Below, in pieces: positions 5,778-25,468 of a DNA stretch of 64,000 bases (positions within the stretch are counted from its first letter, which is position 1; each line of letters starts with the position of its first letter). The notes beneath the pieces were generated by a model. That model did no database searches. It was not told where the DNA came from and saw only the letters and a list, made by a program, of their open reading frames with translations. The stretch covers positions 907,699 to 971,698 of the forward strand of contig NZ_CP062310.1 in the NCBI RefSeq assembly GCF_014876775.1, read 5' to 3'. The stretch is from Infirmifilum lucidum (GTDB taxonomy: Archaea > Thermoproteota > Thermoprotei > Thermofilales > Thermofilaceae). The position numbers and the translations under genes were made by a program.

Positions 5778-5851
5778 CGGGCCCGCCGGGATTTGAACCC
5801 GGGACCTACGGCTTAGAAGGCCGCCGCGCTTCCGGACTGCGCCACGGGCCC
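5778..5851 (-). tRNA. tRNA-Arg(TCT), no intron
   Basis: A full cloverleaf of 74 nt on the minus strand: acceptor GGGCCCG/CGGGCCC with discriminator G, D-arm, anticodon stem GCGGC/GCCGT around loop CTTCTAA (anticodon TCT), variable loop AGGTC and T-arm with TTCAAAT. CCA is not encoded. A TATA-like box lies about 29 bp upstream. It differs at only about 3 of 74 positions from tRNA-Arg(TCG) at 22301-22404, which has gained an intron and an upstream insertion. Confidence 0.97.
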
Positions 5852-5873
5852 CTGCATACTACCTCACGCGTCG

Positions 5874-5887
5874 TCTGATAAATTTTT
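5874..5887. promoter_or_regulatory. TATA box for tRNA-Arg(TCT), perhaps shared with the Brix gene
   Basis: The plus strand reads CTGATAAATTT, giving AAATTTATCAG on the minus strand about 29 bp before the tRNA. The same AT block is about 45 bp before the plus-strand Brix gene. The 41-bp leader from here to the tRNA is conserved upstream of tRNA-Arg(TCG). Confidence 0.65.
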
Positions 5888-5926
5888 CTAGGGAGAGCGT
5901 GCCTGTGTAGCTGAGGGGTCGTAGAG

Positions 5927-22300: not shown

Positions 22301-22404
22301 CGGGCCCGCCGGGACTTGAACCCGGGACATCCGCCGAGCAGCGGCGACGCCGCCACGTCTACGGCTCCGAAGGCCGCCGCGCTTCCGGACTGCGCCACGG
22401 GCCC
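22301..22404 (-). tRNA. tRNA-Arg(TCG) with a 30-nt intron in the variable loop
   Basis: Outside the intron the 74-nt body matches tRNA-Arg(TCT) at 5778-5851 except for about 3 bases. The anticodon loop is CTTCGGA (TCG). An extra 30 nt (22329-22358) interrupts the variable loop after CCGTAG and before GTCCC. A bulge-helix-bulge site fits: exon CCGT pairs with intron GCGG, with 3-nt bulges AG^A and AT^G. This position is non-canonical. A closely similar intron sits at the same place in tRNA-Lys (51158-51298). A 62-nt insertion lies directly upstream. Confidence 0.95.
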
Positions 22405-22466
22405 CTGGCGTCATCTCACCTCCTTGTCATCACTCGTCAGGTGTCAACGCTCAATTCATCCGCCAC
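22405..22466 (-). ncRNA. C/D box sRNA candidate joined to the 5' end of tRNA-Arg(TCG)
   Basis: This 62-nt block separates the conserved tRNA-Arg promoter leader from the tRNA body and is absent from the sister tRNA-Arg(TCT). Read on the minus strand it has a 4-bp terminal stem GGCG (22461-22464)/CGCC (22407-22410), box C core GATGA (22456-22460), D' CTGA (22437-22440), a 3-nt spacer, perfect C' GTGATGA (22427-22433), a 12-nt guide and D-like ATGA (22411-22414). The predicted transcription start is about at its 5' edge, so sRNA and tRNA would be made as one transcript. The outer boxes deviate from consensus. Confidence 0.6.
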
Positions 22467-22488
22467 CTGCACCCTACTTCACGTGCTG

Positions 22489-22500
22489 TCTGATAAATTT
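22489..22500 (-). promoter_or_regulatory. TATA box for the sRNA/tRNA-Arg(TCG) unit
   Basis: AAATTTATCAG on the minus strand, with a flanking leader closely matching the one before tRNA-Arg(TCT) (about 34 of 41 positions). It lies about 26 bp before the inserted sRNA but about 90 bp before the tRNA itself. That distance supports a joint transcript. Confidence 0.65.
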
Positions 22501-22552
22501 TTTCTAAAGTAGTAACAGAAATCCCGTAGCAGGAAGGACGCTAGTGACTTGA

Positions 22553-25468
22553 TTACTGGATGATAATTGCGGGTCTCGCTGGGAGTGCTTGACGGGCCTT
22601 TGGCGCGCCCCTGGCCTCCTCCTCGGACAGAACCCTCACTCTCTTCCCAGTAACCTCCTCGTAGAGGCGTATCGCATCTCTGAGGGTTTGTTCTTCAATC
22701 TCTGGACTCACTAATAGGTCTAGCACGTCAGTGTTCTTGACTATAACTTCTACGAGCTTAACAGCCTCCTTCTGGTATCTGCGGTCAAGCTTGCTTAAAG
22801 CCTCGCGTATTGCCTGCTGGACTTTCCCGTGCTCGCGGAAGCTCTGGTTTACCATGTTGAGGAAGTCATACTTCCACCTAGAAGGCAGGACTATCGCTAT
22901 CTCGCCAATACTCTCGCTCTTTATAACTCTCAGTAATTCTTGTATGTCTTGGAGTACTTTCTGTACTATCCTCTCCGCTCTCTCCACCTCGTCATTAATC
23001 TTAGCCGCCTCGGGTTCTGGCCAGCGCTCTTTCACGATCAAAGTCCCCTTTCCTATCTTCTCCCATACTTCCTCGGCTATGTGGGGCGTGATCGGGGCAA
23101 GTATGAGGGTCTGGAGCTCTATGAAGCGCTTCAGCAGTTCCCTGTTTGGCGTACCCCTGCGCTTCAGGTACCACTTGAAGGCGTTTTGGAGGTTAAACAG
23201 GCCCTCCGTTATAACGTTCTTGGTGTTGAGCTTTTCGTATTCCTCCTCGACGTACCTCAGTGTGCGGTTCAAAACACTCTCAAACCACTTGTCGATGAAC
23301 TTCCACTCGACGTCGCCCTTGCCATAGTTCTCAACAGCAAAGGTATACCACTCATAGAGGAGATCTACGGCTCTTGAGGCGAACTCTGGCTCGAAGTTCC
23401 CGTCGTCTAGTCCGGTATTGCCCGCGTAGGCACTCGTTAGCCTTGTCGCATCGGCACCCCAGTAGTCGAGTGCCTCTCTCAGTAGGATGAAGTTGCCCTT
23501 GGACTTGGACATCTTCTCGCCAGCCACGTTAATCCAGCCGTTTATTGCGATACCCCTCGGCCAGTGCTCTGGCGGGAAAATTGCTACATGGTGCATTATG
23601 AAGAACACGAGGTGGTTCGGCACGAGGTCTTTACCCGAGACTCTGAGGTTCACGGGGTACCAGTAGAGGAACTCCTCTCGCATCTTCTCTACTAACTCAG
23701 TGCTGATGCCCAATTTTCTGCTCACTTCCTTGGCATCCCCTATCCCCAAGAAGACATAGTCGAACAACGAGTTGTCGAGCTTTTCCCAGTCTATCCCGTA
23801 TACCTCTGGGTGCTGGAGATACTTTGAGATAGTGTAGTATGCCATGTAGATCGTTGAGTCGCTTAGTGATTCGAGAACCCACTTCTCGTCCCATGGCAGC
23901 GGAGTCCCGAGCTCCCTTTCGTGTGTACACGCCCAATCTTCATACCAGTCTACGAGCCTGTGAAACTCCTGCTTGAGCTCAGCCGGCAGAAAGACCATTG
24001 AGTCTATGCACTTGTGGGCTTTAGCCTTCCATTCCCTGTCACTATACCTCAGGAACCACTGATCCTTAACTATTTTCACGTGGGTACGGGCCCCGCACCT
24101 GCAGTATACAGGCCTTGGAAGAGTGTAATGCCTCAAGGCGGCGCCTAGGCCGACAAGGTACTTTATTATATCCTCCTTAACTTCGTAGACTCTCTTGCCG
24201 CCCCACTTTTCACCATAGACTTCCGTCTTGAGAATACCATTGTAGAACTCCTTGGAGTAGACCTCACGCGTCGCCTCCTCCAGCCTCTCTCTATCGCCTT
24301 GGTAGCTAACCCCGTATTTCCTGACCACAGTTTCAGCGGGATACTTACCGTATCCCCCGAGCTCTATCAAGCTTACAGGCTGTACGGCGTCGAGTATGGA
24401 GGGATCTACGTTATACCTGTCGAGGAAGTGGGGATCCCGCTTCAAGTCTTCGAGGGCAACCCAGTCGAAGGGCGCGTGGGCAGGCACAGACATCACTACG
24501 CCAGTACCTGTGTCGTGCGCCACAAACGTAGCCGGTAGGACGGGAACCCTCCACCCTGTCACGGGATTTAGAGCGTAGTGTCCAACAAACTCCGCCCCTC
24601 TTACACGCCCAAGAACCCGGACGCTGTGGCCCTGATCTGCAAGCTCTTCGGCACCGTACGCTCCGAGAACCCACTTCTCCCCATCTACTTCGGCTATAAC
24701 ATATTCTGCATCAGGGTTCACCCAGATATTAACAGCCCCCCATACTGTTTCTGGGCGGTAAGTCAGGCAGGGATACGTGAGGCCGTCCTCCCCCCTGAAT
24801 TTAACTATTACTACCTCCTCTGGACTCACTCCGGCGTACTCGTCTGGTCTATCGTGATCCCCTACAACCTTTTTCTCCTTGGGGCACCAGACAACGGGGT
24901 GTGAGCCCTTTGTTATAAGCCCCTTCTTCCGCAGGAGAGTGTACTGCCACTGGATGAACTTGTTATAAGGGGGGTTGAGGTACGTGGTGAAGAACTCGCG
25001 CCTCCAATCAATGGACAAGCCATACCTGCTGAAATCCTCTCTAAAACCCTTTGAGAAGAAGCGCACCCAATACTCCGGATCCTTGAACTTTTCAACGTCC
25101 TCATCGCTGATACCCATCGACTTGAGTATGCCAATCTGTTTCGGATCCCCTTCTCTTACCCTCAGAGCAGCGGCGACTATAGGACCCCCTGTGGCGTGCC
25201 AGCCCTGGGCAAACAGGACGTTGTAACCTTTCATCCTCTTGAACCTGGCAATTATGTCCACTCTAAGAACAGTGTAGGCAGTTCCTAAGTGGGGGTACGA
25301 GTTGATATAGGGGTAGGGGAACGTCACAAAGAACTTGGGTCTACGAGGATCCGGATCCGCCTCAAAAACACCTAGCTCAGCCCAACGCCTCTGCCACTTA
25401 GCCTCAATGCTCTTCAGGAAATCCCTCTTCCTCTCGTCAACTTTTGGGAAGCGATCTCTGCTAGCAAT
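22553..25468 (-). CDS. leuS: Leucyl-tRNA synthetase, probable ATT start
   Basis: Class I synthetase charging tRNA-Leu. The HIGH-like motif PHLGTAY lies near the N-terminus, the editing domain is inserted in the middle and KMSKSKGN precedes the anticodon-binding helical region. The first ATG/GTG/TTG in frame is GTG 25327. However, upstream codons encode the conserved lead-in RDRFPKVDERKRDFLKSIE, then KWQRRW, back to a TGA just before. The only well-placed start is ATT at 25468-25466, 6 nt after GAGGTGG. With it the protein is about 971 residues, normal for archaeal LeuRS. The alternative is a truncated start at 25327. Confidence 0.93.
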   Translation of the reverse strand: MASRDRFPKVDERKRDFLKSIEAKWQRRWAELGVFEADPDPRRPKFFVTFPYPYINSYPHLGTAYTVLRVDIIARFKRMKGYNVLFAQGWHATGGPIVAAALRVREGDPKQIGILKSMGISDEDVEKFKDPEYWVRFFSKGFREDFSRYGLSIDWRREFFTTYLNPPYNKFIQWQYTLLRKKGLITKGSHPVVWCPKEKKVVGDHDRPDEYAGVSPEEVVIVKFRGEDGLTYPCLTYRPETVWGAVNIWVNPDAEYVIAEVDGEKWVLGAYGAEELADQGHSVRVLGRVRGAEFVGHYALNPVTGWRVPVLPATFVAHDTGTGVVMSVPAHAPFDWVALEDLKRDPHFLDRYNVDPSILDAVQPVSLIELGGYGKYPAETVVRKYGVSYQGDRERLEEATREVYSKEFYNGILKTEVYGEKWGGKRVYEVKEDIIKYLVGLGAALRHYTLPRPVYCRCGARTHVKIVKDQWFLRYSDREWKAKAHKCIDSMVFLPAELKQEFHRLVDWYEDWACTHERELGTPLPWDEKWVLESLSDSTIYMAYYTISKYLQHPEVYGIDWEKLDNSLFDYVFLGIGDAKEVSRKLGISTELVEKMREEFLYWYPVNLRVSGKDLVPNHLVFFIMHHVAIFPPEHWPRGIAINGWINVAGEKMSKSKGNFILLREALDYWGADATRLTSAYAGNTGLDDGNFEPEFASRAVDLLYEWYTFAVENYGKGDVEWKFIDKWFESVLNRTLRYVEEEYEKLNTKNVITEGLFNLQNAFKWYLKRRGTPNRELLKRFIELQTLILAPITPHIAEEVWEKIGKGTLIVKERWPEPEAAKINDEVERAERIVQKVLQDIQELLRVIKSESIGEIAIVLPSRWKYDFLNMVNQSFREHGKVQQAIREALSKLDRRYQKEAVKLVEVIVKNTDVLDLLVSPEIEEQTLRDAIRLYEEVTGKRVRVLSEEEARGAPKARQALPARPAIIIQ

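Follow-up and report, generated by a model that had tools for sequence, protein, structure and literature searches.

A small RNA encoded ahead of a tRNA-Arg gene in a heat-loving archaeon, and its probable role as a guide for ribosome modification

In a heat-loving archaeon, a short stretch of DNA between leuS and tRNA-Arg(TCG) holds what is very probably a gene for a dual-guide C/D box sRNA whose promoter also drives the tRNA, with release by RNase P, two guided methylations of 16S rRNA, and an sRNA that stood behind leuS first. The wider claim could fall either way: that across the order (presumably Thermofilales) a C/D sRNA 2'-O-methylates a C of the anti-Shine-Dalgarno sequence, and that within the genus this sRNA makes up the promoter-proximal half of one transcript with tRNA-Arg, which RNase P then cuts. 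The anatomy of the sRNA, its conservation, complementarity to 16S rRNA, promoter spacing and synteny can be read from the DNA itself. The locus lies in a 64,000-nucleotide stretch (the window) of a genome forming a single contig of 1,625,846 bases. It was compared within the genus (seven genomes, presumably Thermofilum/Infirmifilum), the order (27 genomes) and the phylum (398 genomes).

Results

Layout of the locus

Along the minus strand, leuS is followed by the promoter, a 60-nt C/D-like RNA, one spacer base and tRNA-Arg(TCG), and an insert of 62 nt (22405-22466) separates a tRNA-type promoter from the tRNA (Table 1). A first-pass annotation of the window had compared this gene with tRNA-Arg(TCT) and had called the exons nearly identical; without its 30-nt intron the TCG gene indeed equals the TCT gene at 71 of 74 bases, and the length of exactly 62 nt given there for the insert relative to the TCT gene holds, give or take a one-nucleotide sliding ambiguity.

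Table 1. Features of the leuS-sRNA-tRNA-Arg(TCG) locus and of the comparison gene (positions in the window)
Feature	Position	Strand	Basis or remark
leuS (leucyl-tRNA synthetase)	22553..25327	-	co-directional, upstream of the sRNA; conserved sRNA neighbour
Leader common to tRNA-Arg(TCG), tRNA-Arg(TCT) and tRNA-Arg(GCG)	22467..22508	-	leader comparison
BRE/TATA promoter element AGAAAAAATTTATC	22492..22505	-	motif learned from 38 tRNA leaders
C/D box sRNA, 60 nt	22406..22465	-	kept in 7/7 genus genomes; covarying terminal stem
Terminal stem, 5' arm TGGCG	22461..22465	-	pairs with 22406-22410; 3 compensated pairs, 6 sequences
C box GATGA	22456..22460	-	3-nt bulge GAT plus kink-turn GA; anatomy alike in 13/13 related RNAs
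D' guide GCGTTGAC	22443..22450	-	complement of 16S GUCAACGC, 16S 932-939 of the window genome
D' box CTGA	22437..22440	-	
C' box GTGATGA	22427..22433	-	
D guide AAGGAGGTGA	22416..22425	-	complement of 16S 3' end UCACCUCCUU, the anti-Shine-Dalgarno
D box ATGA	22411..22414	-	in the genus only GA is constant; other genera have CTGA
Terminal stem, 3' arm CGCCA	22406..22410	-	
tRNA-Arg(TCG), 30-nt intron	22301..22404	-	starts 1 nt past the sRNA
tRNA-Arg(TCT), paralogue without insert	5778..5851	-	comparison gene

Conservation and kink-turn of the sRNA

The C/D architecture that the first-pass annotation had seen in the insert is real, and where that annotation had left room for an insert absent from relatives, or for boxes that are not conserved, each of the seven genus genomes proved to have the C/D RNA. 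The pattern GCGTTGAC-N(12-32)-AGGAGGTG has a match in every one of them; read backwards, it has none there and a single one among the 27 genomes searched. Within the genus the guide cores GCGTTGAC and AAGGAGGTG do not change, while the spacers and parts of the boxes vary. In the terminal stem 93% of the cells are paired and three pairs have changes on both sides (6 sequences); with slid partners at most 58% are paired, and two of the six slides (-3 and +3) give one or two compensated pairs. The covariance search that had been suggested as a check recovers the RNA throughout the genus (E about 1e-19 to 1e-22), as well as in the sister genus g3 (E 3e-15 and 2e-9) and, more weakly, relatives across the order.

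A flush GC stem, a three-nucleotide RAT bulge and a GA on each of the C and D sides are common to all 13 related RNAs, and in all 13 the bases past the GA/GA tandem are partly paired. On our reading of the alignment, the C box, a poor fit to RUGAUGA when the final UGA is insisted on, would consist of stem, a three-nucleotide bulge (GAU) and GA, that is, a regular kink-turn. The C' box (GTGATGA) and D' box (CTGA) fit the RUGAUGA/CUGA consensus; the C box (GATGA) and D box (ATGA) fit it only partly. None of the Rfam C/D families reaches its cut-off, the best being sR12 with 15.6 of 38 bits; as the Rfam sR families represent individual guides, the cut-off is not defining for a new guide RNA. Other families of the class have further C/D-like RNAs in which GATGA directly adjoins a GGTG/CACC stem and the D box is ATGA (L082 and L087, around 1501-1560); this box variant may be common there.

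Guides and predicted 16S targets

The D guide (AAGGAGGUGA) complements the 3' end of 16S rRNA, UCACCUCCUU, over ten bases (predicted -17.3 kcal/mol), and the D' guide (GCGUUGAC) complements GUCAACGC, with N+5 on a C, at what we take to be about 960-967 of E. coli 16S. Among 2000 shuffles, 76 reached the match of the D guide and 455 the eight contiguous Watson-Crick pairs of the D' guide; single-sequence matches are thus not compelling by shuffling, and the case rests on the conservation of guide and register. Both guides stand in a fixed N+5 register to 16S rRNA, and the register is conserved: that of the D guide falls on one and the same C of UCACCUCCUU, presumably E. coli C1535, in 15 of the 16 tabulated sequences, the guide of G004 being off by one base. 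The D guide is present in at least 16 of the 27 genomes of the order (those of the genus and of g3 counted), and the pattern of C' box, D guide and D box, with one mismatch, occurs in 11 of 398 phylum genomes, nine of the 11 being in the order; the reversed control had no match among the 398. Other genera of the order likewise have the D' guide GCGTTGA, set in the same register to the D' position, and in some of them the D guide differs.

In another family of the order (L077, L078 and L080, around 1501-1560) the D' guide GCGTTGA is kept and the D guide is replaced by GAYGGGCGG, which we take to match the decoding-site sequence of 16S rRNA, CCGCCCGUC; this hints at a modular exchange of guides among sister C/D RNAs. 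Outside the order, TGATTATAAGGAGGTGAGCTGA was seen in two genomes (L107 and L108, 1501-1522) and may belong to a C/D RNA with an anti-Shine-Dalgarno guide or to an ordinary ribosome-binding site. No target of the D' guide in 23S rRNA was accepted, as the best match in the LSU locus (5016) falls outside the 23S gene and 23S rRNA does not contain GTCAACGC.

Promoter, leader and probable joint transcript

A promoter motif, GAGAAAAnTTTATA, was derived from 38 other tRNA leaders of the window genome and starts 38-59 nt upstream of the respective tRNAs; the site of the TCG gene lies 101 nt from the tRNA and 40 nt from the sRNA. Apart from this site and its one-nucleotide shifts, nothing in the 200 nt before tRNA-Arg(TCG) scores above -2, and the scan of the window genome thus gives one promoter ahead of sRNA and tRNA and none between them. 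With the sole match 40 nt before the sRNA and 101 nt before the tRNA, transcription is expected to start at the 5' edge of the sRNA, in agreement with the start proposed earlier at the 5' edge of the insert. In G001, G002, G003 and G005 a site stands before the sRNA at a similar spacing (37-41 nt) with weak motif scores; in these genomes part of the transcription may come from leuS read-through.

No second TCG gene was seen among the 40 tRNA loci found in the window genome, and the sRNA-tRNA arrangement must therefore deliver tRNA-Arg(TCG). Together with the promoter spacing and the gap of 1-8 nt in six genomes, this argues for the joint sRNA-tRNA transcript that the first-pass annotation had put forward. 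RNase P RNA was found in all seven genomes of the genus (in three of them below the curated cut-off), and genes for fibrillarin and Nop5 in the window genome.

When the TCG leader was compared with those of 39 other tRNA loci, the TCT leader (23) and the GCG leader (20) stood out (mean 4.9, sd 4.7). The common leader described for the TCG and TCT genes is real (30 of 42 bases ungapped, more with one gap), but is not confined to them: as the TCT and GCG leaders resemble the TCG leader more than any other tRNA leader does, the leaders form a trio rather than a pair. Of the proposed comparison of Arg loci in relatives, the TCG/sRNA locus could be followed across the genus; TCT genes were not found in the other genomes with a short pattern, its matches in G001 and G002 not being tRNAs. 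Within the window genome the leaders of TCG (22467-22508), TCT (5852-5893) and GCG (L042) are alike, possibly because leaders were duplicated or underwent gene conversion; in G001 and G005, by contrast, the GCG leaders do not look alike. The introns of tRNA-Arg TCG (22329-22358) and CCG are identical over 30 nt, and the GCG intron is longer, related and in the same place (L041, L042), which suggests that an intron spread between the Arg tRNA genes of this genome.

Synteny with leuS

Every one of the seven genomes of the genus has the sRNA immediately after leuS, and in six of them tRNA-Arg follows the sRNA after 1-8 nt. The anticodon of this tRNA is TCG in G000, G001 and G006 and, by inspection, TCG in G002 and G005 and apparently CCG in G003. 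G004 has the sRNA behind leuS without a tRNA next to it, its tRNA-Arg(TCG) occupying another site with a promoter of its own; in two genomes of an outgroup sister genus (G008 and G013) the sRNA is again behind leuS, with no tRNA found beside it. A search of more distant leuS loci gave no further copies of the sRNA, and an exact DNA search for the sRNA-tRNA junction among the genome contigs gave no match. In the leuS tree G004, the pair G002 and G003, and the other four form a trichotomy, so a single arrival of the tRNA would either postdate the split of G004 or have been followed by loss in G004.

Under either reading of the tree the sRNA was most likely at leuS before the tRNA. Since it is behind leuS in all seven genomes and, without a tRNA, in the outgroup genus, tRNA-Arg(TCG) most likely joined an existing sRNA locus, the opposite direction to the capture of a guide RNA into a tRNA unit that the first-pass annotation had proposed. 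The TCT gene, which had been taken for the state before the capture, is a paralogue with a similar leader, and the supposed pair includes the GCG gene as a third member.

Alternative explanations

That the sRNA gene was instead inserted into a pre-existing tRNA-Arg(TCG) unit would agree with the likeness of the window-genome leader to those of the TCT and GCG genes, both without an insert, but is improbable, as the sRNA stays behind leuS in all genomes, including G004 and the two outgroup genomes, where no tRNA follows it. We consider it very unlikely that sRNA and tRNA are transcribed separately, from a tRNA promoter hidden inside the sRNA: G001 does have a TATA-like match (8.3) within the sRNA, but the distance of this match from the tRNA exceeds the usual spacing, and in the window nothing besides the -101 site and its shifts exceeds a score of -2. 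Practically no weight is left for a reading of AAGGAGGTGA as the Shine-Dalgarno sequence of a short frame running into the tRNA, with the insert as a translation leader; the ATG that closely follows AAGGAGGTGA in the window is not conserved in relatives (ACACGACG, ATGGACG, CAGGAGCC), in which the stem pairs and boxes are conserved instead, and the short frame was rejected on this ground.

The remaining alternative accepts a real C/D sRNA but makes its D guide a folding chaperone of the 16S 3' end, or a blocker that covers this end until the small subunit is mature. In its favour, the complementarity extends over ten bases, the D box is degenerate in the genus (ATGA, ACGA, TGGA, AGGA), the guide of G004 is shifted by a base, and chaperone roles have been proposed for dual-guide sRNAs in a pan-archaeal survey (PMC4644070). 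We nevertheless hold this role to be unlikely: a fixed N+5 in 15 of 16 sequences, a base between guide and D box that varies freely, and the canonical CTGA as the D box in seven genomes are what a methylation guide requires.

Discussion

We propose that transcription would start near the 5' end of the sRNA and run through sRNA and tRNA. RNase P would cut at the 5' end of the tRNA, at once freeing the tRNA and making the 3' end of the sRNA, one nucleotide past the closing stem; the 5' end of the sRNA would be the transcription start or be trimmed. L7Ae would bind the C/D kink-turn and the C'/D' motif, and Nop5/fibrillarin would 2'-O-methylate, with the D' guide, the C in helix 31 of 16S rRNA (GU[C]AACGC) and, with the D guide, the C of the anti-Shine-Dalgarno (UCA[C]CUCCUU). 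In the history of the locus the sRNA would have come first behind leuS, and tRNA-Arg would have been placed after it within the genus. The transcription, cleavage and methylation steps of this scheme are predictions from genome sequence.

Joint transcripts of a tRNA and a C/D sRNA are known in archaea, as the first-pass annotation had noted: sRNA8-tRNA-Val of N. equitans, and the tRNA-Ser of I. hospitalis, tRNA-Pro of T. tenax and sR44-tRNA-Arg of T. kodakarensis dicistrons (PMC3491384, PMC7994747, PMC4247193). As in the locus described here, a single transcript carries both RNAs and tRNA processing makes one end of the sRNA; in those dicistrons, however, the sRNA follows the tRNA or its release is ascribed to RNase Z, whereas here it is upstream, so that RNase P would define its 3' end. 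In the dicistronic tRNA-snoRNA genes of plants the tRNA precedes the snoRNA, and RNase Z cuts them apart. These plant genes likewise combine a tRNA and a C/D RNA in a joint transcript (cited in PMC7994747). Among the papers covered we found none with an sRNA ahead of a tRNA; earlier reports are possible in the 2018 survey of Pyrobaculum C/D sRNAs.

With the archaeal dual-guide C/D sRNAs (the Rfam sR families and snoPyro_CD) the RNA shares the order C-D'-C'-D, a length of about 60 nt, two guides, a kink-turn and the N+5 rule; it differs from them in a C box, GATGA, flush with a GC stem, in a D box NNGA, and in scoring below all Rfam cut-offs. The main text of the pan-archaeal survey (PMC4644070) makes no mention of an anti-Shine-Dalgarno target, and in the main texts covered we found no description of a C/D guide against this sequence.

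The locus would be a conserved case in which the guide RNA comes first, compared with the described archaeal dicistrons in which the guide is behind the tRNA, and RNase P would be the enzyme that matures the sRNA. With one sRNA and one tRNA, the genus offers a natural comparison of the fused and unfused states. The predicted target of the D guide is the sequence that ribosomes use to find the start sites of messages, and a guide against it throughout the order would place a ribose methylation at the core of an rRNA sequence that has been studied in depth. If this is true, an arginine tRNA would be tied to a guide for the end of the ribosome that reads start sites.
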